Below are positions 8,044-47,946 of a DNA stretch of 64,000 nucleotides, piece after piece; positions within the stretch are counted from its first letter, which is position 1; every line of letters starts with the position of its first letter. This stretch comes from Bacillota bacterium. GTDB taxonomy: Bacteria > Bacillota > Clostridia > Peptostreptococcales > Anaerovoracaceae. Where the stretch lies: contig JAGAHX010000035.1 in the NCBI GenBank assembly GCA_017626845.1, positions 1-64,000 of the forward strand, written 5' to 3'. The position numbers were made by a program, and so were the translations under genes. The notes beneath the pieces are model-generated. The model searched no databases. It saw nothing but the letters and a program-made list of their open reading frames with translations, and was not told the origin of the DNA.

Positions 8044-9027
8044 CTATTTGATCTCGTAGGGATTGGGTTTTCCGCTCAGCGCCAGGTAAGACGCCTCGAT
8101 GGCGGTCTTCAGCTGTTCGTTGGCGGACAGGTAGGTGCAGAAGGCCATATGCTGCAGCAGGGTCACCTCGGGCAGTTCCTCCAGGGCCGCGATGTGTTCG
8201 GGCACCGGTTTCTGCCGCGCGTCGGTGTAGTAGTAGCCGGACTCATCCTCGATGACGTCCAGCACCGCGCCGCCCAGTTTCTTCGCCCGCAGGGCGTCGA
8301 TGAGGGCCCAGGTGTCGATGAGGTCGCCCCGGGCGGTGTTGACGATGTAGGCGCCGGGCTTCATGAGAGCCAGCTTTTCCGCGTTGATCAGATGATGGTT
8401 CTCCGGGCTTGCGAAGGCGTGCAGCGTAACGATGTCGCAGCGCTGCAGCAGTTCCTCCATGGATACGTACTCGCAGAATTCCTTCAGACCGTCGTTTTCA
8501 TAAATATCATAGCAAAGGATCTTGCATTCGAAGGGGCGCAGGCGCTTCGCCACGCACTGGCCGATCTTGCCGGTGCCGATGATGCCTACCGTGAGTTCGG
8601 ACAGATCGTGACCCCTGCACTGGTTGATGCGGTAGTCGCGGGTGCGGTAGCCTTCCAGAATGGTATGCACTCTTCTGGCGCTCATCAGGATGCACATCAC
8701 GGCGTAGCTGGCCACGCTCTGGGGCGGATAGACCGCGTGAGAAATGCCGATGCCGTACTTCTTCGCCGCATCCTTGTCGAAGTGGTCGAAGCCCACGGAC
8801 TGGGTGACGACGTGCTTTACGCCGGCTTCCTTCAGGGTCCGGAATTCCTCTTCTCCCGTGGGATGGGGCACGGAGATGACCGCGTCGAACCCCTGCCCTT
8901 TGAGCGCCTTGTACGCCTCCAGGGAGGGCAGGTCTTCCGTCGCATCGTAGTCGAGCCCATATCCTTTAAACAGCTCGTCCAGGAATTTCTCCTGCGCTGC
9001 CTGCTTGCAGAAAAGTTTTACTTTCAT
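8044..9027 (-). CDS. D-isomer-specific 2-hydroxyacid dehydrogenase (D-lactate dehydrogenase / VanH-like)
   Basis: An NAD-dependent dehydrogenase that probably reduces pyruvate or a related 2-oxoacid to the D-2-hydroxyacid. The Rossmann motif is GIIGTGKIGQCVAKRL near 147-162. The catalytic Arg lies in NTARGDLIDTW near 233-243, Glu near VLDVIEDESGYY, and the catalytic His near LLQHMAFCTY. The N-terminal VTQSVGFDHFD segment is typical of the D-LDH/VanH branch. The 327 residues are usual. It lies between a YdcF-like gene and dtd in one operon. No ligase gene of vancomycin resistance is nearby, so fermentative D-lactate formation is more likely. Confidence 0.9.
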   Translation of the reverse strand: MKVKLFCKQAAQEKFLDELFKGYGLDYDATEDLPSLEAYKALKGQGFDAVISVPHPTGEEEFRTLKEAGVKHVVTQSVGFDHFDKDAAKKYGIGISHAVYPPQSVASYAVMCILMSARRVHTILEGYRTRDYRINQCRGHDLSELTVGIIGTGKIGQCVAKRLRPFECKILCYDIYENDGLKEFCEYVSMEELLQRCDIVTLHAFASPENHHLINAEKLALMKPGAYIVNTARGDLIDTWALIDALRAKKLGGAVLDVIEDESGYYYTDARQKPVPEHIAALEELPEVTLLQHMAFCTYLSANEQLKTAIEASYLALSGKPNPYEIK

Positions 9028-9059
9028 ACTGTCTCCTTTGCTTGTCTTGTATTGGGAAC

Positions 9060-9665
9060 TTAAATATAAAACAATCTCGTGTAGACCATGCCCAGAGCTT
9101 CCCGGATAAAGTACCGTACTTTATAGGCAGCCAGGCTGGTGGGCGCCGGATAGGTGCCGAAGTCGTAGTCCAGCAGATGGCGCCCCAGATAGCGGGCGCG
9201 GCACAGGTGATATTCGCTGGAAACGATCACGATCCTTTGCGTCTGCCAGTCTTCCCCGCAGTCCTGCGCGATAAGATCGCAGGAAAAGCGGAGGTTTTCC
9301 CGGGTGTCGGAGGCATCCTCCTCCGCGATGACCCGTCCAGCGTCCACGCCCTTCTCGATCAGCCAGTTCCGCATGCACTGGCCCTCGCTCTCCGGTTCAT
9401 CCGGGCCCTGCCCGCCGGTGACGACGGCCTTGGCGTCCGGATAGTTTTCCAGATAGGCTAGCGCTGCCCGCAGGCGGTCGTCCAGCGCGCGGGACGGTCC
9501 CCAGGGGTCGACCTTCGCGCCGAGAACGATAATATAGTCCGCGTCTTCGTAGTTCTGCCCCTTGCTGGCCCGGATCACCAGGCTTTCGGACACGCAGAAC
9601 GTAATGGCGCCGATCGCGATAACAGCGAGGAGGATGCCCAGAACGATCTTCAAGGCCTTCCTCAT
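9060..9665 (-). CDS. YdcF/SanA-family (DUF218) membrane-anchored protein
   Basis: An N-terminal hydrophobic helix (residues about 5-27) anchors a DUF218 domain: DYIIVLGAKV near 44-53, RLRAALAYL, AVVTGGQGPDEPESEG near 82-97, DTRENLRFS, and IVSSEYHLCRARYLG. Members have been linked to envelope integrity and vancomycin tolerance; the biochemical activity is not settled. The start is placed at ATG 9665, which overlaps the stop of the upstream lipoprotein gene by 4 bases (ATGA). The 201 residues fit the family. The open frame extends 22 codons upstream, but that part lies inside the lipoprotein gene. Confidence 0.85.
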   Translation of the reverse strand: MRKALKIVLGILLAVIAIGAITFCVSESLVIRASKGQNYEDADYIIVLGAKVDPWGPSRALDDRLRAALAYLENYPDAKAVVTGGQGPDEPESEGQCMRNWLIEKGVDAGRVIAEEDASDTRENLRFSCDLIAQDCGEDWQTQRIVIVSSEYHLCRARYLGRHLLDYDFGTYPAPTSLAAYKVRYFIREALGMVYTRLFYI

Positions 9666-10951
9666 CCTGCGGTCCTCGAATAGACCAGATTCATGCCGGT
9701 GGGTTCGTCGGAATGGTCTGCCTCGGTCCATTCGTACCAGGTGACGTACAGCATCTGATTCTCCGGATCAGGCCGCAGCTGCATCTGCCACAGACCGTCG
9801 TCGGATTCGTACACGACCACCCAGTCGTCCGCATCCGTACCGTCCGCTTTGGCATCAGAGACCATCCGCATCTCCGTAAACAGATAGGCGCCTCTGGGGT
9901 CATTTTCGTTGCTGTAACCTGCATAGAGCAGTCCGTTGCTGAGGATCTCCAGCTCGCTTGCGGACAGACCGGCTCCCATATAGGTGATGCCGTCGTCATT
10001 CCAGGCGTACTGGATGTACCAGGTGCCGTAGAGATCCAGGAAGCTGGGGAAGTACGGAACCTCCTCGTCCGCACGGTAGATGTGGGCGCCGCCTGCACCT
10101 GCCGCATAGAAACTGTAGTACGGATCTTCGATGAGGGAAGCGAAGACCTCCGCGTCTTCCCGGACGCCGAAGCCGTCCCAGCTGTAATGCAGCCCCACGT
10201 TCAGGGCTTCGTCCGTATAGTCGTCTTCCGGCGTCTCGAAGGTGTCCGGGGTCCACCAGGCGATGCTGCAGACGCTCTCATTATAGCCGGCAAAGCGCTC
10301 GGCGGGGGCGTTTACGTACCACTCCCCGTCCCGGTCCATGCCTTCATCCTCCGGACCGTAATACCAGATATGGTTCTCCTCCAGCCCGTCGGCGTTGGTA
10401 TCCTGCGTCATGGCCATGCACCAGGCGAGGTCGCCGGCTTCCACCGTGCCCTCGGCGATCATCAGGCAATCCAGCACGTGATAGTTCTGGTAATCGGACT
10501 GCTGCACCGGACCCATGAAGATATCGTCCGTCGCGATGAGATAGCAGCCTTCCTGTCCGATATACATCGGGAACTCATCGTGATCCACCAGATCCGGGTG
10601 GGAATATTCGTCTCCGAAGGGGAACGCCAGCGCCTCCAGAGTCTTTCCGTCCAGGCTCATCTCGAAGAAAGCGTCTTCCGACCACCATTCGCCCGACTGC
10701 GCGCAGCGGATGAGCTCCAGCCGGCCGTTGTTGTTCAGGTCCGTGACCGCATAGAACGTAGCGTAGTTTTCCGCAGGTTCGAGCCACAGATCCTTATTGG
10801 CGACGATCACATCGATCTGGTCCTCTGCGGGCACGTCGCTGCGGACGACTTCCGGTTCCTGTTCCGTTTCCGGAGCAGTTTCGGAAGACGTGCAGGCGGC
10901 AAGCCCGAAGATCATCGCGGCTGCAAGGAAAATAGCAAACCATTTCTTCAT
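9662..10951 (-). CDS. Predicted lipoprotein with EF-hand-like loops, paralogue of the upstream gene
   Basis: A lipoprotein signal peptide (MKKWFAIFLAAAMIFGLAAC, lipobox LAAC) precedes an acidic linker and about 380 residues of secreted domain. DLNNNGRLEL near residue 84 and DTNADGLEEN near 200 resemble EF-hand/dockerin calcium loops. It is similar in layout and motifs to the gene at 10969-12273 (same V-T-D-L-x-x-N-G-R-L-E-L core, same WxxW-rich ending YVTWY.W), so the two arose by duplication. GGGAGGTG precedes ATG 10951. I recognise no family and assign no function. Confidence 0.8.
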   Translation of the reverse strand: MKKWFAIFLAAAMIFGLAACTSSETAPETEQEPEVVRSDVPAEDQIDVIVANKDLWLEPAENYATFYAVTDLNNNGRLELIRCAQSGEWWSEDAFFEMSLDGKTLEALAFPFGDEYSHPDLVDHDEFPMYIGQEGCYLIATDDIFMGPVQQSDYQNYHVLDCLMIAEGTVEAGDLAWCMAMTQDTNADGLEENHIWYYGPEDEGMDRDGEWYVNAPAERFAGYNESVCSIAWWTPDTFETPEDDYTDEALNVGLHYSWDGFGVREDAEVFASLIEDPYYSFYAAGAGGAHIYRADEEVPYFPSFLDLYGTWYIQYAWNDDGITYMGAGLSASELEILSNGLLYAGYSNENDPRGAYLFTEMRMVSDAKADGTDADDWVVVYESDDGLWQMQLRPDPENQMLYVTWYEWTEADHSDEPTGMNLVYSRTAG

Positions 10952-36235: not shown

Positions 36236-37069
36236 CTATACCGCCACGGGGATCTTCTTTACCTGGGGGCCTGCCTGGTAGTCTTCGAATTCAAAATCGT
36301 CCAGCGTAAAGTCGTAGAAGTTCTTTACGTCGGGATTCATCTTAAACTTCGGCGCCGGATACTGGGGACGCTCGATCAGCTCGCGCACGATGGGCTCGTG
36401 TCTGTCGTAGATGTGCGCGTCGGAGATCATGTGCACCAGCACGCCGGGCTTTAAGCCGCTCACCTGGGCAAACATGTGCACCAGCACCGCATACTGCGCC
36501 ACGTTCCAGTTGTTGGCGACCAGCACGTCCTGGGATCTCTGATTGAGGATTGCATTTAAACGATCGCCCGTCACGTTAAAGGTCATGGAGTAGGCGCAGG
36601 GCTCCAGGCCCATCTCCGACAGATCCGCGAAGTTGTAGATGTTGGTCATGATGCGGCGGCTGTAGGGAGAGTTCTTCAGCTGCCACAGCACGTTGTCCAC
36701 CTGGTCCATCTCGCCCTGGGCGAACTTGTATTTGACGCCCAGCTGATAGCCGTAAGCTTTGCCTATGGTGCCGTCGCCGCCGGACCAGGCGTCCCAGATG
36801 TGGCTGTGCAGATCCGCCACCCGGTTGGACTTTTTCTGCCAGATCCAGAGGATCTCGTCGATGGCGTTCTTCATGGGCGTAGGCCGCAGGGTGAGCGCGG
36901 GAAATTCCTCCTGCAGATCGTAGCGGCTGCAGACGCCGAAGATCTTGCGGGTGTGAGCCGGAGCACCGTCGTCCGCCCACTTCGCCCGGACGACCTGCCC
37001 TTCCGTGGAATAGCCGTGATCCAGGATCTCTTTGCACATATTCACGAAGATACCGTCTGCTTTACTCAT
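36236..37069 (-). CDS. thyA: Thymidylate synthase ThyA
   Basis: This enzyme converts dUMP to dTMP with methylene-tetrahydrofolate. The 277 residues carry the folate/dUMP-binding landmarks: ALTLRPTPMKNAIDEILWIWQ split near 54-74, DAWSGGDGTIGKAYGYQLG near 94-112, RRIMTNIYN near 138, and LEPCAYSMTFNV near 154-165 with the catalytic Cys in EPCAY (Pro-Cys pair). The later QRSQDVLVANNWNVAQYAVL holds the conserved Asn/Asp region. ATG 37069 is chosen for its SD AGGAGG; it overlaps the MFS gene stop by 8 bases. Confidence 0.95.
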   Translation of the reverse strand: MSKADGIFVNMCKEILDHGYSTEGQVVRAKWADDGAPAHTRKIFGVCSRYDLQEEFPALTLRPTPMKNAIDEILWIWQKKSNRVADLHSHIWDAWSGGDGTIGKAYGYQLGVKYKFAQGEMDQVDNVLWQLKNSPYSRRIMTNIYNFADLSEMGLEPCAYSMTFNVTGDRLNAILNQRSQDVLVANNWNVAQYAVLVHMFAQVSGLKPGVLVHMISDAHIYDRHEPIVRELIERPQYPAPKFKMNPDVKNFYDFTLDDFEFEDYQAGPQVKKIPVAV

Positions 37070-38288
37070 GGGAACCTCCTTTGGGAACCGCATAGCGGCG
37101 GTACATAGCCGCCAGGAATATCGAAATGGCGATGCAGATGAGCGCGTTCATGCGCCAGCTGCCCTCGTAGCTGATGACGTTCAGCAGCGCGCCGTACAGC
37201 ACCGGGCTGAAAGTCTTGCCCGCCGCCGTCGCCGTCTCCAGCGTGGACTGGAAGCGCGCCACATGGGTGGCCGGGGAGTTCGCCGCGATAAAGGCGGCAG
37301 ACCCCGTGTTGATCATGATCTCACCCACCGTCCAGATGACGGTGGAAGCGAAGAACAGCCACACGCTCTTCACGAAGCCGTACATGCCGAAGCCCACCGC
37401 GTAGAACAGGAGCGCCGCCGCCATGTTGAGGAACTGGTGCCTGCGCTTCGTCACCGTAACGATGAGGGGCGTCAGCAGGATGACCACGATACCGTTGACC
37501 GTCCAGATAAGTCCGGAATAACGGCTGCCGTCCGCGACGCCGAACAGGTCGGACATCTGCAGCGACAGGTTGAAGTTGAGCATCTGGTAGCACATGCTGA
37601 TGACCAGCATGCTGCACACGAAAATGAACAGCGGCTTTCTGGCGTAGAGCAGCTTGATCGTGCTGCCCGACCGTCTTCCTCCCTCGAAGGACGGCGCCAG
37701 GGCGTTTCTGGCCGGGTCATAATGATCCTCCGCGAACAGCGCCACGACGAGGACGGACAGAAAGCTGATGACCCCGTCCAGCACGAACATGCCCACCAGG
37801 TGCTTGTGGAACAGGAAACCGCCGATGGCGGGCCCTGCGGCAAATCCCACGTTCTGCACCAGATACATCAGGGAGAAGCTCTCGGTGCTCTTTTCCGGCT
37901 TGCACACGTCCGCCACCATGGCGGAGAGCACCGGAAACAGCCCGTAACCCGCGCCGAAGCCGATCACGACGGGGGCGATGACGCCGCGGCTGCGGCATAC
38001 GGCCGCCGCCCAGAACTGGGTGAGCCCGACGATCACCAGGATGAAGCAGGAGACTTTCTTGCGGCTCATGCGGTCCGCGGCCCAGCCGCCGGCCATGGTG
38101 CCGAAGATGCCGGCTCCGTAACTGACGGAGATCCAGATGCCGGACTCGAAGGAATCCATGCCCAGCACGTCTTTGTACAGCAGCGGGGTCATGAAGGAGG
38201 TCAGGAAACTGATCGCCCCCAGCACCCGCGCCAGGCACAGGATATATACTTGTCTGCCTAATCCGGCAAAGTTATCTAGGTAATGCAA
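37062..38288 (-). CDS. MFS transporter, tandem copy 2
   Basis: A 12-helix major facilitator of 408 residues. The signature GGWAADRMSRKK near 67-78 (loop 2-3) and the conserved Arg/Asp pattern are present. It is a clear paralogue of the next gene: shared GRQVYILCL, FPVLSAMVAD, ESFSLMYL..NVGFAAGPA and THVARFQS blocks. TTG start at 38288 immediately after the stop of the other copy (TAATTG), with GGGGAG about 10 bases upstream. Its substrate is unknown; drug or metabolite efflux is typical. Two adjacent paralogues may act as a pair or on related substrates. Confidence 0.87.
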   Translation of the reverse strand: MHYLDNFAGLGRQVYILCLARVLGAISFLTSFMTPLLYKDVLGMDSFESGIWISVSYGAGIFGTMAGGWAADRMSRKKVSCFILVIVGLTQFWAAAVCRSRGVIAPVVIGFGAGYGLFPVLSAMVADVCKPEKSTESFSLMYLVQNVGFAAGPAIGGFLFHKHLVGMFVLDGVISFLSVLVVALFAEDHYDPARNALAPSFEGGRRSGSTIKLLYARKPLFIFVCSMLVISMCYQMLNFNLSLQMSDLFGVADGSRYSGLIWTVNGIVVILLTPLIVTVTKRRHQFLNMAAALLFYAVGFGMYGFVKSVWLFFASTVIWTVGEIMINTGSAAFIAANSPATHVARFQSTLETATAAGKTFSPVLYGALLNVISYEGSWRMNALICIAISIFLAAMYRRYAVPKGGSHE

Positions 38289-39557
38289 TTAAACGGATTC
38301 TCCCCTTGCCTTCTTTGCCATCTCGCCCTTGAAGATAAACCAGCAGTACGCCGCGATAACGATGCAGCAGACCGCGTTGATAGTCCAGGTCTGCCTGTAA
38401 TTGAGATACGTCAGCAGCTCGCCGAAAAGGAATGGGCCGAGGCCTCTGCCGATGGAGCGGGCCATGTCGTACTGGGACTGGAACCGCGCCACGTGGCTGG
38501 CCGGACTGTGCTCCGCGATAAAGACGCCGGCGCCAGTGGAGATGAGGATCTCGCCGATGGACCAGACGACCACCGCCAGGAAGTACAGGGGCAGCGCCTT
38601 GATGTAGCCGTACGCGCCGAAACCGACAGCGTAGAGCAGGCATCCGAGCGCCATGCAGTTGAACTGGTGATGCGTCTTCGTGTACCGCATGATGACCGGC
38701 GTTCCGAAGACCACCATCAGGGCGTTGACCGTCCAGATCCGGCCGCTGTAGCTGCCGCCGGCGGCCAGGCCGAAGGCATCCTTGAACTGCAGCGGGAGGA
38801 TAAAGCCGATGCCGCAGTACAGCATCGTGGCGATGGCCAGGGTGACGATGAAGATCAGCAGGATCTTCGTCTTCAGCAGCATCTTGAACGTGCTCTCGTG
38901 CAGAGTGCTCTCCGGTTCCGATGCGGTGTAATGGTCCGCCTTTTTGCGCATGCGCAGCGCTGCCCGCTCTTCCTTCGTCGGTACCTGATATACTTCTATG
39001 GTGCAGATATACAGGATGAGCGCCGCAAACAGGAACATGCCGGCCTGGATGCGGTACACCCAGGGCAGGTGATCCGCCAGCAGCGCGCCGCCCAGCGCAG
39101 GACCGACGGCAAAGCCGAGGTTATGGCTCAGATACAGCAGCGAAAAGCATTCCGCGCTCTTGGGCCCTTTGGCGCTGTCCGCTACCATGGCGGACACGAT
39201 GGGGTAGCATCCGCTTCCGAAGAAAAAGGCGCAGATGGAGATGGGAACGATCCAGATCGTGGTGCAGTAGAAACTGCCCAGCACGTAAAAGCAGCAGGTG
39301 ACCACTGTAAACCACAGGTAGATCTTCTTGCGTCCGTAAAAGTCCGCCATCTTGCCGCCCACGATGGCGCCGACCACGTTGGCTGTGGCATACAGCATCG
39401 CGACGATGCCGGCCTGCTTCGTGGTGAGCCCCACCATGCCGGTGAGGATGAGGGACGAAAATGTGAATACGAGGCTGCCCATCCCGGAGATCCAGCGGAC
39501 GAGGCACAGGATGTACACCTGCCGCGGAAGCCCGAGAAACTGGCTGAAGTAGGTCAT
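38289..39557 (-). CDS. MFS transporter, tandem copy 1
   Basis: A 422-residue major facilitator with 12 helices and the loop 2-3 motif GGKMADFYGRKK near 68-79. It shares blocks with the following gene (PRQVYILCL, YPIVSAMVAD, ECFSLLYLSHNLGFAVGPA, SHVARFQSQ), showing tandem duplication. It is the first gene of the run MFS-MFS-thyA-rlmB-folA-sigH. No clear SD precedes ATG 39557. A 145-bp gap separates it from jetD; that gap has no clear terminator for the Wadjet operon, so read-through into this gene is conceivable. Confidence 0.87.
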   Translation of the reverse strand: MTYFSQFLGLPRQVYILCLVRWISGMGSLVFTFSSLILTGMVGLTTKQAGIVAMLYATANVVGAIVGGKMADFYGRKKIYLWFTVVTCCFYVLGSFYCTTIWIVPISICAFFFGSGCYPIVSAMVADSAKGPKSAECFSLLYLSHNLGFAVGPALGGALLADHLPWVYRIQAGMFLFAALILYICTIEVYQVPTKEERAALRMRKKADHYTASEPESTLHESTFKMLLKTKILLIFIVTLAIATMLYCGIGFILPLQFKDAFGLAAGGSYSGRIWTVNALMVVFGTPVIMRYTKTHHQFNCMALGCLLYAVGFGAYGYIKALPLYFLAVVVWSIGEILISTGAGVFIAEHSPASHVARFQSQYDMARSIGRGLGPFLFGELLTYLNYRQTWTINAVCCIVIAAYCWFIFKGEMAKKARGESV

Positions 39558-39702
39558 AAAGGGATACCGGGTCTTTCTGAGTCTATTGTTAAGGTATGGT
39601 CTCTAAAGAGTTATTTTATCATACGATATATGCCTTGGAACGAAAGAAGTTTGAAAATTACTCTAGAGGCGCGGATGGAAACTTCTAAATTTTCTGTCAC
39701 AT

Positions 39703-40884
39703 TTACAGACATTCGATCAACGCCTCTTGTTCCAATTTCACATTATGTTCCAACATATATTGAATCGTATTCGAGTAATCCGGTATTGAAATCAGCTTTT
39801 CTAAGCGGATACGGTCATTCTGCGTTAATGGAATCGTATATTTTTCATGAGTTCGCAGTTCTTCAACACCCATTCGATAAGGGGAAAAGGGTATTCCGGT
39901 TTTCGTTTTCAAATGTTCTAAAATATAAAAACCGCCCGCATCTATGTCACCAAAATGCAGATATTTTTTCTCCGGGAACAATTCGTATATCTTCTGCAAA
40001 AAGGTTCTTCGAACCGTATTATGATAACCGCCTAAATAGAGAATCAATGTATCCTGCTTGCTACAGTTATAAAAGCTTGTCAGGTTTTCAACAGTCATGA
40101 TACATGAAGTTGGAATGGTTTCAAAAATAATATTCTCTATATCAGCAGATGTCAGGGTCAAACCTTCCTGAAAATCTTCAATTTGGATGATCGATGACCC
40201 TACCATGAGCCTGCCATGACCTTTGATCATCAAATGTCCCGGGTTCTTCAGAACATGAAACTGGGCAAGCACATCCTCCGTTGTTTCTTCGTCTTCTGCG
40301 GAAAAGAATTGTCTCAATATATGGACGATTTTCGTACGGATCCGTTCAAAAGCTTTCGAATTTCCTAAAACTCTCACGGAAAAAACGCGTTCCGAGATAT
40401 CTGAAGACAGATTAATTATCGCGCAGAGCGTTTTTAATAGATCTTCCTGAAGGTGTGGATCGTCAAAAGTCAAAGCAGAGACCCCGCGGAATGATGTGAG
40501 GCGATGTTCTACTTCCTGTAAATAAAGATCGATCCCTTGACCCTCATAACGCTGCAGAAGATCATAGAGGTTTTTATTATGTACACTGCGGATAGGCCGA
40601 TGAAGAAAACGGGCGGCTGTTTCTGCCTGATCCGTTATTAATTCTACTGTATTCAGCAACCCATCATCCCATGTCAGCCGAACCCAACCCCGAGCTTCAT
40701 ACTGCTTTAAATCGTCATCCAGAATCCGAGATTCCTGATAATGATCCATCCGAAAATAATCCGGAAAGTCTCGATCGGCATAAAGCAAAATCCGTAGATT
40801 ACGGGAGCTTCCTTCCTTCGAGAGTTTGGATCTCTCAAACTTTTCTATTAATTTCTCCAGAATATCTTCAGCTTTCAATTTCAT
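39703..40884 (-). CDS. jetD: Wadjet system nuclease subunit JetD (TOPRIM / DUF2220-like)
   Basis: JetD is the TOPRIM-related nuclease of Wadjet, cutting circular plasmid DNA after loop extrusion by JetABC. The N-terminal part (1-190) is a helical arm domain. The C-terminal part carries the TOPRIM acid triad: Glu266 in TVENLTSF, and Asp313/Asp315 in HFGDIDAGG. The 393 residues match known JetD proteins. ATG 40884 overlaps jetC by 17 bases. It is the last gene of the six-gene operon. The family call comes from motif order and neighbours; the active residues appear intact. Confidence 0.92.
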   Translation of the reverse strand: MKLKAEDILEKLIEKFERSKLSKEGSSRNLRILLYADRDFPDYFRMDHYQESRILDDDLKQYEARGWVRLTWDDGLLNTVELITDQAETAARFLHRPIRSVHNKNLYDLLQRYEGQGIDLYLQEVEHRLTSFRGVSALTFDDPHLQEDLLKTLCAIINLSSDISERVFSVRVLGNSKAFERIRTKIVHILRQFFSAEDEETTEDVLAQFHVLKNPGHLMIKGHGRLMVGSSIIQIEDFQEGLTLTSADIENIIFETIPTSCIMTVENLTSFYNCSKQDTLILYLGGYHNTVRRTFLQKIYELFPEKKYLHFGDIDAGGFYILEHLKTKTGIPFSPYRMGVEELRTHEKYTIPLTQNDRIRLEKLISIPDYSNTIQYMLEHNVKLEQEALIECL

Positions 40885-43800
40885 GTATAATCGCCTTGTT
40901 TGTAATGCAATTCTGTGTTTTCACGAGAAGCAATGTAGTATCGCTGTAAGGCATAATATTACGTACCCTACCTTCAGGTACGGCAATCATCAGCTGAATA
41001 TTTAGTGATCGATAGAACTTCATCAGCGCCTCAATGCGGTTTTCGTCCATATTGTTGAACGCCTCATCAAAAAGTACTAAGCAGCCGGTGCTTGCAACCC
41101 TCCTATTTTGCGCAAGTTGGTCAAATGATGCCGCAATAATCACATAGAACGGAGTCTGAGTTTCTCCGCCGCTCTTTTCCCGGTTCACTTTGGAGAACAT
41201 CGTGACTTGTCCATTCGCGTGCGTGATTTTTATGTCATAGTGCATATATTTGCGGTAGTCTGTAAAATCCTGCAGAAGCCGTTCATTGCGTTCACCATTA
41301 TCCGTTGCAACGAGCTTTGTGAACAGTTCTTCCATCAACTTCCGATTATGTTCTGAAAGTTCTTCCATGAAGATCGTGTTCCGCTGAAAATCTTCGCCGG
41401 AACAAAGAATTCTATAATACAAGCTGAATGCTGGATCGTTGCTTGGTCCGACAACAAAGGCATAGTGATCTCCTTGAAAATCTTTATCTTCCAGCGATCG
41501 ATTCAACTGCTTCAGGCTTTTCTTTGCCTGGTTGATTCGATCTCGAAGCGTGGAAATGAAATCCTCCTGGAAAGATTTCTCACATTTAATCCGAGCCTCT
41601 ATCGACTGATTCCGCACTTTTTCGATTTCTACTGTTCGAAGCTTAAGGTAGTGTTGGCGATATTGTCCTAATGCTTCCAAGGATTCTTCAAATCCGAACG
41701 ATGTCCGAAGATTAAAATCGTGCATTTCATCCTTCAACACTCGAATCACATTAGAGAGATCATCTTCAATCTGCTTCTTTCGAAGATTATTTTGATGAGC
41801 CATACGGTTAAAGTCATAACGGGCATTTTTTTGGAGTGATTCGTAAGTGCGATCTACTTCGGCCTGATAATCCAAGAGTTCATCTTTTGCGGCGGCTTCT
41901 GCGGTTTCGATTACCTGAAGCGAATTAAGGATTTCTTCCTCCTCCCGCTGCATGTTCATCAGTTCGCTTTTCAGCATGGAGGATTTTGATTGAATATTTG
42001 CAATCTCTGTCGTATAAGTGCTGCGGGACACTTCCAATTCTTCCTTCTGGCGGGTAAGAGTGAGCCAATTTGGATCATTTTGAAGTTCTTCGAGCTGCCG
42101 GGACACGGCATCCAGTTCATCCCTTACCGTTATGTACTGCTGTTGATTCTGCGCAAAAGAATCGACATAGGACAAGTCCATGACATCCAGTATGCCTTTT
42201 TGATCCTCCGCATCCTTTTTTCTACGGTTCACAAGCTGTAATGCTGTTTTCTTCTGCGACAATTCCTCTCTCGCTGTTACCAACTGCATCTCTACTGCTT
42301 TCAGTCCTAAGAATGGTTTCCTGTAAACAGACGGATGAATAGCTCGGACGGTAAAGTTGCGATAGACCATGCATGATGGAGTGATTGCTTGAATGTGTGT
42401 ATTCAACAGTTCGACGTCTTCTTCACAAACGACTCTTCCCAGTAGCAAATTCGCGTATCTGCGTGCATAAATATTATCAACAGAGACCTTTTCGGCCAAT
42501 GTACCCTTTGGAATCTCGCTGTATGCTTCCAGTTTTCCGGCATCCACGATACCGACGCCATAAATCCCCAGCGATCCTTTGAATTGTTCATAAATGCGGG
42601 AAGCCGCCCGAAAAAAAGCAGGCTCTACAAATAAATCAAAACGCTGTGTATTCAGGTACCCTTCTAATGCATCTCTCCATTGCTCATCTGCGACTTCCAG
42701 ATACTCGCAGAAAGGTTTTACATGAATTTCCCTGCCAGCCACTTTGCAAAGCTGTTCCGTCAGGATTTCTATTAGTGACTGTACATTTTTCTCATATGGG
42801 TGTTTTCTCTGTTCCAGCACCTTTACACGCTCTACGATCTCTGAAACATCCTTCTGTGCTTTCGCCAATTCGATATTAATTTCAGTCCTACGGCTGACAT
42901 TTTCTTCTTTCAAGCGAGAAATGCGATCCCGCATGCTTTGCAGAAAAGAGATGATGGCAGGATCTGTAATATCATCTGCTTCCGGACGGGCAACTCCTTC
43001 CATGACCCGCATCCGTTCCAAATTAATAAGATCCTGCTTATAGCTCTTCTGAAAATTCGCTAGCCATCTTTGACTTTCCGCAAAGGAGCGCATCATAAAG
43101 CGCTTTCTTTCTTCTAAAGCCGGAATCCGCCCGCCTGGATCCATTGTAGAGATCTGACTGTTGATCCCTGCGATCTGCCGGTCTATATCCTCCTGTAAAC
43201 CCCTCAGTGATGCCTCTTTCTCCTCACACACCCTCAGACTGTGCTGATGTGAAGCTGACTCCCTGTGGAGCTCTTCTAATCTCGTTTTATTTTGGTTAAC
43301 AAATATGCGGCCGTTGATGTAGGAGGAAATCTTTAAACCAAGTTCCAGTTCTTCTATTTTACGGCCAGAGGCATCAATCGACTCCAGCATTGCGAGCCGT
43401 TCCTGTTGTTCTTGCAACGTCTGCTCGAAATTGCGATATAATCGTACATTTTCCCGTAAAGAGTCAATATTGACCTTTTCTTCCGGCAGCAGAAAGCGAA
43501 ACATGAAATCATTCAGATCACCAATCGGCTTAAATGCCAATGCACGGGGGATAAGATCTGAATATTTTGAATGCAGGCCGAATGTAGTACTGACAAGCCT
43601 CCTCGCATCTCCTTTGTTCTGGGCAAAGTAATATTTCAGATCAGAACGCCGCAACGAAGACTCAAAAGCCCTCTTATTGCAAACTTCGTTTCCTTTCGGA
43701 ATATAGAACCTTTTTTGTATCTTTGTTTTGTAAATCACATAAAAATGTTCACTGCACCGGCCGCCTTCCGGCAGATCAATAACGGCACCCAATACGAAAG

Positions 43801-44107
43801 GACGTTTTTCTTCTTCGTCATAAAATTCTAAGGCAATATGTGTTACTACATCACCCGTGCGCAGACATTCCTGCGATTCCATGCCAAGCTTGCCGCGCAC
43901 ATATCCTTCCAGCCGACGTGCGCCGTCCTCATTTGCAGCCAGATTAAATTTTGTCCTACCGCCAGTCAGAACATATTGCACAGCATCCAGAAGAGTAGAT
44001 TTCCCTGCACCATTGTGTCCTGTAATCAGAATGTTTCTGTTCACCTCGATTTCACTGCAGGTAAACATGTGCCAGTTAATCAGCAGGATCTTCGTCAATA
44101 ATTTCAT
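40868..44107 (-). CDS. jetC: Wadjet system SMC/MukB-like ATPase JetC
   Basis: A 1079-residue SMC-like motor. The N-terminal half-ATPase has Walker A GHNGAGKST at residues 30-38. Long heptad-repeat coiled coils (about 215-430 and 600-860) flank a hinge (about 450-590). The C-terminal half-ATPase has the ABC signature SGGETQTPFY at 979 and Walker B CLVLFDEAF near 1009. It extrudes DNA loops and recognises small circular DNA. The start is set at ATG 44107, which has GGGAGGACG upstream; ATG 44125 has none. It overlaps jetB by 32 bases. Confidence 0.94.
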   Translation of the reverse strand: MKLLTKILLINWHMFTCSEIEVNRNILITGHNGAGKSTLLDAVQYVLTGGRTKFNLAANEDGARRLEGYVRGKLGMESQECLRTGDVVTHIALEFYDEEEKRPFVLGAVIDLPEGGRCSEHFYVIYKTKIQKRFYIPKGNEVCNKRAFESSLRRSDLKYYFAQNKGDARRLVSTTFGLHSKYSDLIPRALAFKPIGDLNDFMFRFLLPEEKVNIDSLRENVRLYRNFEQTLQEQQERLAMLESIDASGRKIEELELGLKISSYINGRIFVNQNKTRLEELHRESASHQHSLRVCEEKEASLRGLQEDIDRQIAGINSQISTMDPGGRIPALEERKRFMMRSFAESQRWLANFQKSYKQDLINLERMRVMEGVARPEADDITDPAIISFLQSMRDRISRLKEENVSRRTEINIELAKAQKDVSEIVERVKVLEQRKHPYEKNVQSLIEILTEQLCKVAGREIHVKPFCEYLEVADEQWRDALEGYLNTQRFDLFVEPAFFRAASRIYEQFKGSLGIYGVGIVDAGKLEAYSEIPKGTLAEKVSVDNIYARRYANLLLGRVVCEEDVELLNTHIQAITPSCMVYRNFTVRAIHPSVYRKPFLGLKAVEMQLVTAREELSQKKTALQLVNRRKKDAEDQKGILDVMDLSYVDSFAQNQQQYITVRDELDAVSRQLEELQNDPNWLTLTRQKEELEVSRSTYTTEIANIQSKSSMLKSELMNMQREEEEILNSLQVIETAEAAAKDELLDYQAEVDRTYESLQKNARYDFNRMAHQNNLRKKQIEDDLSNVIRVLKDEMHDFNLRTSFGFEESLEALGQYRQHYLKLRTVEIEKVRNQSIEARIKCEKSFQEDFISTLRDRINQAKKSLKQLNRSLEDKDFQGDHYAFVVGPSNDPAFSLYYRILCSGEDFQRNTIFMEELSEHNRKLMEELFTKLVATDNGERNERLLQDFTDYRKYMHYDIKITHANGQVTMFSKVNREKSGGETQTPFYVIIAASFDQLAQNRRVASTGCLVLFDEAFNNMDENRIEALMKFYRSLNIQLMIAVPEGRVRNIMPYSDTTLLLVKTQNCITNKAIIHEIES

Positions 44108-44714
44108 TGGCGTCCTCCCTTCCATAACTACGGATCAGCTTATCGATCTCCGAGATTTCCTCATAAGGGACCGCATACAATAAACTGGGGTACAAGATAA
44201 GCATCGATTCATCTCGTTCCAATTCTCCGATGTTTTCGATCAGATTAAACCGCTTCAGAATGCGCAATATGTTTCGGAAATCCGTTTTGTTCATACGTTT
44301 TGTAAACCATCCGATCTCCTCTATCTCGAAATGAAGTTCCTCTACGGATATCACGATATTCTCATGCAGAGAGATCTCTTTCGCCTTTTGTGCGTAAAGT
44401 TTACGCAGCAACAGCAATAAGACACTCTCGTTTAATTTCAAATTCAGATGGTTGTAATGTTCAAGGCTTTTCAATTGCACAACTTTCTCTGTAGGATGTA
44501 CGATTACTTCATAGTCTGTTATAGCAAAATAATCCCTGTACAAACTAGTCATCCGTTCGATGGAGTAATAATCTTCCCGATCATTATCCTTTTGCCCACA
44601 CAAAAAACTGGAAGACAAAAGTTTGTTTGCAATTCTGGAGAATTCAGTTCTCTCCGTTTCCGTTAAACGTGCGTAATTTTTTGCGAACTGTTGTGCACTT
44701 CTAGACTTATCCAT
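44076..44714 (-). CDS. jetB: Wadjet subunit JetB (MksE/MukE-like KITE protein)
   Basis: A 212-residue winged-helix KITE-type subunit that binds the kleisin and DNA. It has the MksE-like flow: FSRIANKLLSSSFLCGQKD near 27-45, YRDYFAITDYEVIV near 59-72, LNLKLNESVLLLLLRKLYAQK near 87-107 in two parts, and an acidic tail. ATG 44714 is preferred over 44780 because SD AGGAGAAG precedes it and the 8-base overlap with jetA then matches the other joints of the operon. It resembles the DUF4194/DUF6063 class; which one needs a profile search. Confidence 0.85.
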   Translation of the reverse strand: MDKSRSAQQFAKNYARLTETERTEFSRIANKLLSSSFLCGQKDNDREDYYSIERMTSLYRDYFAITDYEVIVHPTEKVVQLKSLEHYNHLNLKLNESVLLLLLRKLYAQKAKEISLHENIVISVEELHFEIEEIGWFTKRMNKTDFRNILRILKRFNLIENIGELERDESMLILYPSLLYAVPYEEISEIDKLIRSYGREDANEIIDEDPAD

Positions 44715-46083
44715 TATTTCTTCTCCTGAAACGGAACTGTCTAAACCGGTATCCATTCGCATGGATCTCCTGGTCTTCATTGATCACGCAAAGCGGACTG
44801 TTTTCGTCGCTGGCATAAAGGTATCCCAGTACCATAAAAGTAAACTCATCAAAGCTGGAAACAGCCAAGTCAGATGCCAGAATCTCATCATTATCTTTGA
44901 GTTGATCCAAGAAAAAGCCTTCGACATTCTTCCTGGAAAATCTGCGTTCCTGTTCCAACAACTTCTGAAAACTGCGAAGAGCCTCTTCATCTATAGTCGG
45001 CTCATCAGCAAAACTTTGCTTCACGCGCAGTCTCTTTTTCTTTGGGGTATATAAGGAATCGTCATCCAAATATATGACACGATACAAAGAAAACAAATCC
45101 GATGGTTCAATACGTCCCGCAAGTAACGCTTTTAGCACCCGGTTGATTTTCCCTTCCAAATCATCATGAGCTTCCAGTAAAAATGTGATCCTGGCCAACG
45201 CAGAATGGATGTATCTGTTATTTTTATGATCGATCTCATCCATCAGCCCATCAATGGATTCAAAGCAAATTTCAATATAATCCATCTGTTCCTGGATTCG
45301 ATTGAAAGCCTCTTCGTAAGTTTCTCCTTTGCGTTCTGCACGCTGGCGGGTAATCGAATCCATCAATACAGTATCCGTCCCGATCTCAATCATTCGATCC
45401 AGCACATATGCCCGGTATTTCTCAGGGTTATCTTTTGTCGTAAGATTGTAATATGATCGATCTACAACCTTTACTTGATACTCTTCCAGAAGCATCGACA
45501 TCAGCGCTCGCAAATCATCCTTATTTTCTTCGTCTACCAGGCGTTGAATATACTTTTTGATATTCGTATTTAGAGATGCTAATTGCCGGAAAAGGTCCTC
45601 TGTATTCGAATATGCACGCTCTAATGCTATGTCGCCATGAAGAGAATCGACTGACTTGAGCAATTGGTAGATTGTATAGATAAAACCACTGTATTCTTCC
45701 GTTTCTCGGGAACTGATCTTGCGGACAGCTTGCAGAAAATCCACAGCATAATCCTGAAAATGCAGAAAGCGTTGATAATTTTCACCGACTTCTTCCAAAA
45801 GCCAACCACAAGACTTTAATCGGCGCAACACAAATTGAGCGGTTCCACGAGAACCATCCAGAACCTCTTCTCCGGCATCTACGGAAAAGTCCGCTGACAA
45901 AACAACCTCTTCTACCAGATCACAGGCCTCTTCGAAAGTAAGTGTATACGATGTACCAAACTTTGTCGCGGTATAGAGTTTGCTCAACGCCTGTTGCATC
46001 AATTCCCGGTTGACTCCGTAGAATACATGATAGAAATTCCCTGGGAAGGCTGCAAACAGATTGGGATCTTGATCTTTAGACAT
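44707..46083 (-). CDS. jetA: Wadjet subunit JetA (MksF/kleisin-like)
   Basis: A 458-residue, acidic, largely helical protein at the position of the kleisin JetA. The N terminus (FAAFPGNFYHVFYGVNRELMQ split near 10-30) is a winged-helix-like domain; a helical middle and a C-terminal winged-helix (FDEFTFMVLGYLYASDE near 418-434) follow. It bridges the JetC heads and binds JetB. It does not show the DUF3375 pattern of classical type I JetA; it looks nearer to the DUF5716 JetA group common in clostridia. ATG 46083 overlaps the preceding gene by 8 bases. Confidence 0.87.
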   Translation of the reverse strand: MSKDQDPNLFAAFPGNFYHVFYGVNRELMQQALSKLYTATKFGTSYTLTFEEACDLVEEVVLSADFSVDAGEEVLDGSRGTAQFVLRRLKSCGWLLEEVGENYQRFLHFQDYAVDFLQAVRKISSRETEEYSGFIYTIYQLLKSVDSLHGDIALERAYSNTEDLFRQLASLNTNIKKYIQRLVDEENKDDLRALMSMLLEEYQVKVVDRSYYNLTTKDNPEKYRAYVLDRMIEIGTDTVLMDSITRQRAERKGETYEEAFNRIQEQMDYIEICFESIDGLMDEIDHKNNRYIHSALARITFLLEAHDDLEGKINRVLKALLAGRIEPSDLFSLYRVIYLDDDSLYTPKKKRLRVKQSFADEPTIDEEALRSFQKLLEQERRFSRKNVEGFFLDQLKDNDEILASDLAVSSFDEFTFMVLGYLYASDENSPLCVINEDQEIHANGYRFRQFRFRRRNNG

Positions 46084-46564
46084 TCTGGTTTGCCCTCCGT
46101 ATCTGCCTTAAGATCTCAACGCCTCTTTGGGTTAGGTCATTCGATCCAATTCCTTTGGCCTCCTTGATCCGCGCAATAGCCATCGCAGGGTCAAGCGTAT
46201 GATATGGCAGATATAATTGATTTAATTCATCCGGTTTTACGACTTTATAGACCTGCCGGCTGGATATCTGTTCGGTATAACACCAGAATCGATAAAGATA
46301 GCCAATCCAATACATATTATCCGCATTATAATGGCTCTGTCCGTAGGCACTCGGACCATATTGCAGTTCGATTTCCTGGATCGCCTGTATACTGTCTGTA
46401 CTTTCAAACAATATGCCGGATTGATCCATCCGTCTTGCGAATTCAGACAGCATAAAACGGCGGATAAAGATCCGGGAACTGCACGAAGTAAGATGAAGCG
46501 ATTTTTCAAAAATATCTGCCTGAAAACTGCAGGATTTTAGCCCATAAGAATCGATTTGTCTCAT
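46076..46564 (-). CDS. Unrecognised 162-residue protein, possible antitoxin to the DUF3990 protein
   Basis: I do not recognise a family. The chain is helical by composition and has an aromatic block YGQSHYNADNMYWIGYLYRF in the middle (residues about 74-93) and a later stretch PDELNQLYLPYHTLDPAMAI near 111-130. There is no signal peptide or membrane helix. ATG 46564 overlaps the stop of the upstream HTH-DUF3990 gene by 4 bases (ATGA), and its own stop overlaps jetA by 8. Obligate coupling with a putative toxin and the small size suggest an antitoxin or regulator, but this is inference from position only. Confidence 0.75.
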   Translation of the reverse strand: MRQIDSYGLKSCSFQADIFEKSLHLTSCSSRIFIRRFMLSEFARRMDQSGILFESTDSIQAIQEIELQYGPSAYGQSHYNADNMYWIGYLYRFWCYTEQISSRQVYKVVKPDELNQLYLPYHTLDPAMAIARIKEAKGIGSNDLTQRGVEILRQIRRANQNV

Positions 46565-47418
46565 TGCAGAATCTCCTCAATATATTTGCCTTGATTTCGG
46601 TACTGCTTCCTGGCGACTTTCACCTTATCCCGGTTGACAGCATAATTATCTTGTTTCAGCTGCATATACCGATGCTTTTCCGTATCGGAAAGAAAGCAAT
46701 GTTCGAGAAGCTGCACCTGGCGCATCGCCTCTTGCGTACGAAATACATACTGCGTTCCCAAATTGGTTGCAGAAAGACAATGCTGACATTGCACGTCAGT
46801 CAGTTCTCCATCGATAAACTGGTCGATGATCTCGAACATACGGTTATCTGCAATCGGAGCTATAACATAATCGGAATTTTCTACTCTTTCTGCCAGTTTA
46901 CGGACAATTTTAGAATCATTATATGATTCCAACAGATTCCGATAATACGCAACTGTCAGCATCCAATCCTGATCCACATGAAATTCACATCTTTGAAGTC
47001 CTTCAGGATTGAATTTAACCATATAAAGCGAAGCATTCGGATAAGCTGCAACGAATGTGATCGCTTGTTCCATGGTATCTCCGCAATAAAAACCAGGGCC
47101 GAAGTCGTTTTGATTTTTTGCATGTTTTAGATCCGGCATGCCTTCGATTCCTGTTTTTGAACCGTGGAATAGAAGCAATCCATTGGAAGCAGAGGTTTCT
47201 TCGGTATAAAGCTGTTCCTTGATCCTATTTAATTGAACACCCTTCGAATAGGTAAACTCGTAGAAAGCTTTTACATTCCTGTCATCCGGCTCATGGCTTT
47301 CGCTTAACCAATTATTCAAGGTTGATCTTGAGATTTTCAATTCCCTCGCAAAATCAGAGTGTGAAAGCCCCAGCAGCTCTATTACAACTTTTATGTCCTG
47401 TGCAAATTGATAATTCAT
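46561..47418 (-). CDS. HTH-DUF3990 fusion: putative ADP-ribosyltransferase-fold toxin/regulator at the head of the Wadjet operon
   Basis: Residues about 5-60 form an XRE-like helix-turn-helix (ELLGLSHSDFARELKISRST, then LNNWLSESHEP). Residues about 80-235 match DUF3990, a family with an ART-like fold: LLLFHGSKTGIEG (His85), NDFGPGFYCGDTMEQAITF (Tyr111), and FIDGELTDVQC (Glu205/Gln210), then LGTQYVFRT. A charged tail follows. The order His-Tyr-Glu resembles the diphtheria-toxin-type NAD site, but activity is not shown. SD AAGGAT precedes ATG 47418. The HTH probably binds the palindromes at 47439-47516. It could be a toxin, an infection sensor or a pure regulator. Confidence 0.85.
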   Translation of the reverse strand: MNYQFAQDIKVVIELLGLSHSDFARELKISRSTLNNWLSESHEPDDRNVKAFYEFTYSKGVQLNRIKEQLYTEETSASNGLLLFHGSKTGIEGMPDLKHAKNQNDFGPGFYCGDTMEQAITFVAAYPNASLYMVKFNPEGLQRCEFHVDQDWMLTVAYYRNLLESYNDSKIVRKLAERVENSDYVIAPIADNRMFEIIDQFIDGELTDVQCQHCLSATNLGTQYVFRTQEAMRQVQLLEHCFLSDTEKHRYMQLKQDNYAVNRDKVKVARKQYRNQGKYIEEILQ

Positions 47419-47438
47419 AAAGGTATCCTTTTTGCAAA

Positions 47439-47516
47439 CTTATTTGTACAAAATTATACAAACAAGATTCGTACTTGTCAACAAACTTGTTTGTATAAAA
47501 TTGCACAAACAAGTTT
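47439..47516 (-). promoter_or_regulatory. Perfect consensus promoter of the Wadjet operon framed by two long palindromes
   Basis: TTGACA (47481-47476) and TATAAT (47458-47453) are exactly 17 bases apart. Palindrome 1 (47439-47466, arms CTTATTTGT/ACAAACAAG, one mismatch) covers the -10. Palindrome 2 (47483-47516, perfect 12-bp arms AAACTTGTTTGT/ACAAACAAGTTT) ends next to the -35. Both have 10-base spacers and their centres are 47 bp apart. This fits tight repression by the operon's own HTH protein. Confidence 0.88.
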
Positions 47517-47522
47517 CAACGA

Positions 47523-47552
47523 ACAAAATAACCGGTGAATCTTCCACCGGTT
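47523..47552 (-). terminator. Terminator of the carD-to-mrnC operon
   Basis: AACCGGTG (47530-47537) and CACCGGTT (47545-47552) pair around a 7-base loop. On the minus strand ATTTTGTT follows, a modest T-tract. It separates mrnC from the Wadjet promoter by only about 14 bases. Confidence 0.7.
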
Positions 47553-47556
47553 ATGA

Positions 47557-47946
47557 TTATGCCTTTTCAATAGTCTCCGCCGCCCGCTCCATCAGCTCCG
47601 CCAGCCGTTCGCTTTGGCCGGACAGATACAGGTAGCCGAGCAGGGCTTCGAAGGCGGTAGCCATCTTGTAGGTGAGCGGGTCTGCGTTCTTCGGCTTGGA
47701 AGTGATCTTATGGTTGCGGGCGCGATGCACCACGACCTGTTCGTCTTCCGTCAAATCGTCCAGCATCTCCCGCAGCGAAAGCTCCTGCGCCGCCGCCTTC
47801 ACGTAGCGCACGGCTGCCCGGTGCATCTTATCCGCCCCGGTCTTGCCGCTCCGCAGGATGCGCTCCCGGATAAACCGCTCATAAACAGCATCGCCCATAA
47901 AGGCCAGGGCGATGCTGTTGTAGTTTTTATAGTCGACTTCTCTCAT
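47557..47946 (-). CDS. mrnC: Mini-ribonuclease III
   Basis: A 129-residue RNase III-fold protein lacking the dsRNA-binding domain, which trims 23S rRNA ends in Firmicutes. Marks are NSIALAFMGDAVYERFIRE near 9-27 (catalytic Asp) and YKMATAFEALLGYLYLSG near 92-109 (catalytic Glu in FEALLGYLY). The ATG follows the cysS stop with no gap, the standard cysS-mrnC pair. In other Firmicutes rlmB follows directly; here the acquired block begins instead. Confidence 0.95.
   Translation of the reverse strand: MREVDYKNYNSIALAFMGDAVYERFIRERILRSGKTGADKMHRAAVRYVKAAAQELSLREMLDDLTEDEQVVVHRARNHKITSKPKNADPLTYKMATAFEALLGYLYLSGQSERLAELMERAAETIEKA

Follow-up and report, generated by a model that had tools for sequence, protein, structure and literature searches.

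A toxin–antitoxin-like gene pair with its own predicted operators precedes a type I Wadjet system in a clostridial gene cassette

Introduction

Which protein would shut a promoter that matches the sigma-A consensus perfectly, and to which genes does the control belong? The question is raised by a 64,000-nucleotide stretch of contig JAGAHX010000035.1 (assembly GCA_017626845.1; the whole stretch is hereafter called the window) from a bacterium of the clostridial family Anaerovoracaceae, in which two related palindromes accompany such a promoter and six genes follow it, the last four encoding a Wadjet system, a kind of anti-plasmid defence that cuts closed circular DNA. A preliminary description had taken the strength of the promoter as a sign of tight repression and rapid induction of a defence operon, plausibly through the helix-turn-helix (HTH) domain of the first gene product. 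Our literature search found nothing on Wadjet regulation and no description of a toxin–antitoxin (TA) type promoter driving a Wadjet; DUF3990, the second domain of the first protein, is mentioned in few papers.

Results

The promoter, on the minus strand at 47481–47453 (Table 1), is an exact TTGACA-N17-TATAAT and lies in an intergenic region of 110 bp with 73% AT. The preliminary description was right that the two palindromes are related and that their centres lie 47 bp apart: aligned over 36 nt as direct repeats, they are 86% identical, with a start-to-start distance of 47 bp. Its placement of them over the -10 and upstream of the -35 also agrees with the coordinates; the lengths of 28 and 34 bp need amending, however, as the downstream palindrome is also 34 bp long and the shorter figure describes its core (47439–47466). 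Similarly, the half-sites with their 10-bp spacer are found, but the unit is the AACTTGTT box with an arm spacing of 24 bp rather than CTTGTTTGT alone. Four AACTTGTT/AACAAGTT-like octamers (47515–47508, 47491–47484, 47468–47461 and 47444–47437) run through both operators with their centres 24, 23 and 24 bp apart.

Table 1. Promoter, putative operators and genes of the cassette, in window coordinates
Feature	Position	Strand	Basis or remark
-35 hexamer TTGACA	47476..47481	-	Exact consensus
-10 hexamer TATAAT	47453..47458	-	17-bp spacer to -35
Operator 1 (upstream), AAACTTGTTTGT-N10-ACAAACAAGTTT	47483..47516	-	Abuts -35; conserved in homologues
Operator 2 (downstream), AATCTTGTTTGT-N10-ACAAATAAGTTT	47436..47469	-	-10 within its spacer; conserved in homologues
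Intrinsic-terminator-like hairpin between upstream mrnC and operators/promoter	47528..47554	-	12-pair stem, T-rich tail
M42A, HTH_3 + DUF3990 (ART-like), 285 aa; predicted autorepressor and toxin-like enzyme	46561..47418	-	Pfam, PADLOC PDC-M42A/M13/M10, AF2, Foldseek, alignment
M42B, all-helical partner, 162 aa, PDC-M42B	46076..46564	-	PADLOC; akin to the N-terminal portion of DUF3990 partners that bear an HTH
jetA, Wadjet type I kleisin	44707..46083	-	Overlaps M42B by 8 nt
jetB, DUF4194, KITE	44076..44780	-	Start probably internal, ~44714
jetC, MukB/SMC-like ATPase, 1085 aa	40868..44125	-	PADLOC/Pfam
jetD, Toprim nuclease subunit	39703..40884	-	PADLOC/Pfam
Acquired cassette, ~8 kb: terminator, operators, promoter, six-gene operon	39579..47563		Absent in sister genome G046 (L131)

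The arms of operator 1 are perfect over 12 bp around a 10-bp spacer, and when the 110-bp intergenic region was shuffled 20,000 times by mononucleotide, no such 12-10-12 palindrome appeared. There are, nevertheless, three in the whole window, since terminators and coding hairpins also form them; palindromy alone is therefore weak evidence, and it is from their recurrence in relatives that the strong evidence comes. The same caution applies to the promoter: with 12 exact consensus sites in the 2.28-Mb assembly, consensus strength by itself implies nothing, and tight repression does not follow from it alone. At up to two mismatches, AACTTGTTT-N14-AAACAAGTT occurs at just two sites in the genome, both at the M42A promoter, and we rejected a wider regulon on this ground; an RNA element was likewise discarded, Rfam giving no match.

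All six genes behind the promoter overlap one another, M42A and M42B by 4 nt, an overlap seen also in many relatives. The Wadjet is a complete type I system with JetA-JetB-JetC-JetD in order (PADLOC E-values: JetA1 2e-96, JetB1 1e-59, JetC1 2e-283, JetD1 1e-100), and Pfam JetA and JetD_C match as well; as jetB matches its PADLOC profile only from residue 34 onwards, the gene probably has an internal start. Shuffled sequence contains promoter-like sites at least as often as the operon does, and none of those within the operon comes near a 12/12 match; the upstream promoter is thus the likeliest driver of all six genes, which it would probably drive alone, although weak internal promoters for the jet genes are conceivable. 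A search of NCBIfam profiles gave no informative match.

In PADLOC's terms, the first two genes form the candidate defence module PDC-M42, a DUF3990 protein with an adjacent PDC-M42B; the two are neighbours at every locus with enough contig, and share with type II TA systems the conserved overlapping two-gene operon. The AF2 model of M42A (mean pLDDT 90) consists of an HTH (residues 5–58), a connecting helix (63–77) and an ART-like domain. With Foldseek, the HTH resembles P22 c2, HigA2, CapH and CylR2 (probability 0.97–1.0, none at E 0.001) and the ART-like part tankyrase and the catalytic domain of diphtheria toxin (probability 0.95–0.98, E above 0.01). Pfam DUF3990 matches at 3e-28, a family that Pfam places in its ART clan (PMC7955679). 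Residues H85, Y111 and Q223 are invariant in our alignment, and by position we read them as the ART H-Y-[EDQ] residues; together with the clan membership, they make it likely that M42A is a toxin-like enzyme held in check by M42B.

M42B gave no solved relative of its fold. It does resemble the N-terminal part of the HTH-bearing partners of other DUF3990 proteins (hhalign probability 95%, E 4e-8). In two same-family relatives (L019, 1492–2797; L025, 837–2139), the HTH sits at the C-terminus of the partner, and in a third (L028, 1489–2736) a single fused protein of 415 aa combines DUF3990, partner and HTH. Such movement of an HTH that stays within the two-gene module is what one would expect of a module with built-in autoregulation, as in a TA-like autoregulator, and suggests that M42A represses its own promoter, probably together with M42B. 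The partners in three clostridial and Acholeplasmatales MAGs carry a fused GNAT acetyltransferase domain (L048 and L049, both 8852–9793; L051, 4280–5578), in L051 with a further, weakly pyrophosphatase-like extension at the C-terminus. Acetyltransferase matches of the M42B profile stem solely from these three members, and we rejected that function for M42B.

To establish recurrence, we gathered homologous M42A-M42B pairs from GTDB genomes and searched up to 150 bp upstream of the M42A start codon for AACTTGTTT-N14-AAACAAGTT (18 scored positions; arm starts 23 bp apart, or 22 in three loci), with 200 dinucleotide shuffles of each upstream region as the chance control. The operator is present at loci whose M42A is 33–59% identical to the window protein. 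Within clade 1, 21 of the 23 loci have 0–4 mismatches and 20 of the 23 keep both arms; shuffles reached the same score in 1.5% of cases at L011, 2% at L046 and 0.5% at L048, and never (0/200) at the other clade-1 loci with 0–4 mismatches. What remains at L043 (6 mismatches), L044 (5) and L040 (4) is mostly the right arm. The 47-bp distance between the centres of twin operators is seen also at L041, L045 and L047; elsewhere it is 59, 39 or 35–37 bp.

The pattern accompanies the gene across orders, including Acholeplasmatales MAGs (L049, L051), and disappears in the controls: 20 DUF3990 loci without an HTH (best 5–9 mismatches), the regions preceding 15 other jetA genes (5–8 at best) and, in whole-locus scans, 23 other jetA loci (nothing below 4). 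A distant clade with another HTH (TVNRWENG) has a different palindrome, TATAACAT..ATGTTATA, of about 40 bp, which straddles the -10 in most members. The palindromes thus recur upstream of homologous HTH-DUF3990 genes, where their absence would have spoken against a regulatory role, and we read them as operators; with the palindrome type following the HTH type and HTH-less relatives having none, repression by the HTH of the first gene product, as the preliminary description had proposed, is the best reading. Near-consensus promoters are also a trait of the M42A family: a match of at least 11/12, with spacers of 16–18 bp (17 in all but a few), is found at 16 of 33 M42A promoters, whereas among other genes of these loci, taken as background, the figure is 41 of 370.

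Two further observations concern the search motif. Comparing L042, L046 and L052 with L009, L041, L045 and L047, the twin spacing of 47 or 59 bp differs by a 12-bp step, which, along with the 24-bp arm spacing, hints at protein units arranged along the DNA with a 12-bp period. A zero-mismatch AACTTGTTT-N14-AAACAAGTT lies within coding sequence at position 1501 of L087 and L088 (G031 C213:2014 and G107 C318:11533), in a gene that by eye is of the molybdate transport type; it is probably a chance occurrence and a caution for motif-only searches.

Within the operator, outer and inner parts differ in constancy. Among M42A proteins of the HTH types NNWLS, ISRSE, ITRTE, ISRWR and IDEIK, 33–50% identical across types, the outer octamers are constant, AACTTGTT/AACAAGTT, and the inner 14–16 bp are specific to the type: in the same order, GTAAAC..GTTTAC, AAGTAATGTGATAT, GTATCATTTGATAC, TCAACATTTGTTA and GTACAACTTGTAC. 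The inner sequence is retained within an HTH type at 61–71% protein identity. Since recognition helices differ even where the AACTTGTT box is shared, a simple model of one HTH reading one box is incomplete; the inner dyad varies together with the recognition helix, which therefore fits the dyad better, presumably leaving the outer boxes to be read by some invariant element. A lead is provided by the motif [RK]xNxxK[EQ]x[LMF] just past the HTH, found in all proteins of the AACTTGTT type, with V/Q replacing its first residue in the window protein, and in 0 of 9 of the TVNRWENG type; as a candidate reader of the outer boxes, it rests on a correlation that is phylogenetically confounded.

Does the control belong to the Wadjet? 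None of the 32 other M42A-M42B pairs has jet genes beside it, though a few of these contigs end soon after M42B, and none of 23 other jetA loci, sampled at the level of family, order and class, has M42A, M42B or the operator; the closest other jetA that we found is about 31% identical. With the pairs standing apart from jet genes and other jet operons lacking the operator, the control belongs to the M42A-M42B pair, and we rejected it as a Wadjet property. The preliminary description correctly placed a defence system under the promoter, as the downstream genes include a Wadjet, but the control is a feature of the HTH-DUF3990 pair. It appears that the Wadjet was placed under the control of a TA-like pair, the junction being known from one example, in a draft assembly. 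At L078 (2915–3271, minus strand), a small ORF that by eye resembles RelE/HigB toxins lies directly upstream of jetA and is possibly a second TA-Wadjet neighbourhood.

The arrangement came to its present site by acquisition. In the congeneric genome G046, with flanks 94–97% identical, the site is empty: mrnC is directly followed by the transporter gene that in the window lies beyond jetD. Third-position GC is 0.40–0.45 in all six operon genes against 0.77–0.85 in their neighbours. From the empty site and the uniformly low third-position GC, it is most likely that the terminator, operators, promoter and six genes, some 8 kb of low-GC DNA, arrived as one unit. A search for integration repeats at the ends gave only an 8-bp match, away from the borders, and a plasmid or phage origin was rejected, as close relatives of M42A or JetA were lacking in plasmids and one truncated match came from a viral contig. 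In two congeners (L134, L135), other genes, about 2.4 kb, stand between mrnC and the transporter gene, and the gap thus looks like a variable insertion spot. Beside the cassette, at 37062–39557 on the minus strand, are two tandem related MFS-type transporter genes with stretches about 69% identical.

Discussion

We consider it probable that the promoter is that of an autoregulated, TA-like pair, that M42A, alone or with M42B, binds both operators and shuts it, and that jetABCD is transcribed only from there. M42A would bind the two 32–34-bp operators through its N-terminal XRE-type HTH, and the bound complex, lying over the -10 and immediately upstream of the -35, would turn the near-consensus promoter off. 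As jetABCD follows M42B directly with overlapping frames, the Wadjet would depend on this self-repressed promoter: at steady state, occupied operators would allow little of all six proteins and a low Wadjet output. Whenever repressor occupancy falls, because the complex is depleted or the cassette enters a naive cell, a joint burst of M42A, M42B and JetABCD would follow, after which the promoter would reset itself.

The same layout could be that of a dedicated Wadjet controller, with DUF3990 acting as a sensor and not as a toxin. An HTH gene in first place, inverted repeats at the promoter and defence genes after it form a defence-operon layout known from BrxR/CapW, CapH-CapP and CapK-CapS (PMC9122601, PMC13373217), and the model of the M42A HTH resembles CapH. 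M42A-M42B, however, has no WYL domain, peptidase or kinase, and its invariant H-Y-Q residues suggest enzymatic activity; above all, with jet genes scored, the 32 related pairs without them lack the defining habit of Cap controllers, repeated occurrence upstream of defence operons, and are not generally joined to such operons. We regard a dedicated controller as unlikely. More improbable still is that the operators are bound by some other regulator encoded elsewhere in the host: the constancy of the AACTTGTT outer box despite differing recognition helices would agree with it, but the own genome has only its two sites, the operator tracks the gene across orders as far as Acholeplasmatales, and the palindrome type switches with the HTH clade. 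Least credible are chance palindromes in AT-rich DNA beside a strong promoter and without regulatory meaning; AT content, the three palindromes of the window and the 12 exact promoters of the genome make them conceivable, and we reject them on the recurrence of the same sequence, spacing and position at more than 20 loci and its absence from the HTH-less DUF3990 and jetA controls.

If the autoregulated pair is the correct reading, its closest likeness is the type II TA system Xre-RES of P. putida (PMC12204516), whose autoregulation works similarly; there the HTH is on a separate antitoxin, whereas here it is on the DUF3990 protein, with twin 34-bp operators and a whole Wadjet operon downstream. 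The RptR-controlled island of DarTG2 and type I restriction-modification in E. coli (PMC12255303) likewise has one repressed promoter for a defence island with an ADP-ribosyltransferase TA pair. RptR, though, is a separate small repressor binding TAGCTA direct repeats; in our cassette, the TA-like pair itself supplies the predicted repressor and the second system is a Wadjet. In its subunits, the latter is like the described type I jetABCD (PMC10586767), with all four present, and differs from the other Wadjets sampled in being preceded and overlapped by M42A-M42B and the operators.

More tentatively, and with rather more doubt than conviction, we suggest that the operator is composite: the M42A recognition helix may read the clade-specific inner dyads and a second conserved element, the motif helix or M42B, the AACTTGTT boxes, in which case the ART-type TA module might be a portable, self-resetting switch that captured a Wadjet. 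That the outer sequence is constant and the inner one variable is unusual and would reveal how HTH-ART proteins read DNA. For PDC-M42, an uncharacterised defence candidate, a set of operators is now defined, with several HTH types and more than 20 loci. Little is known of Wadjet regulation, and the cassette offers a concrete, testable case of a Wadjet under a TA-like autorepressor, in which an anti-plasmid SMC system and an autorepressor pair would move as one unit.
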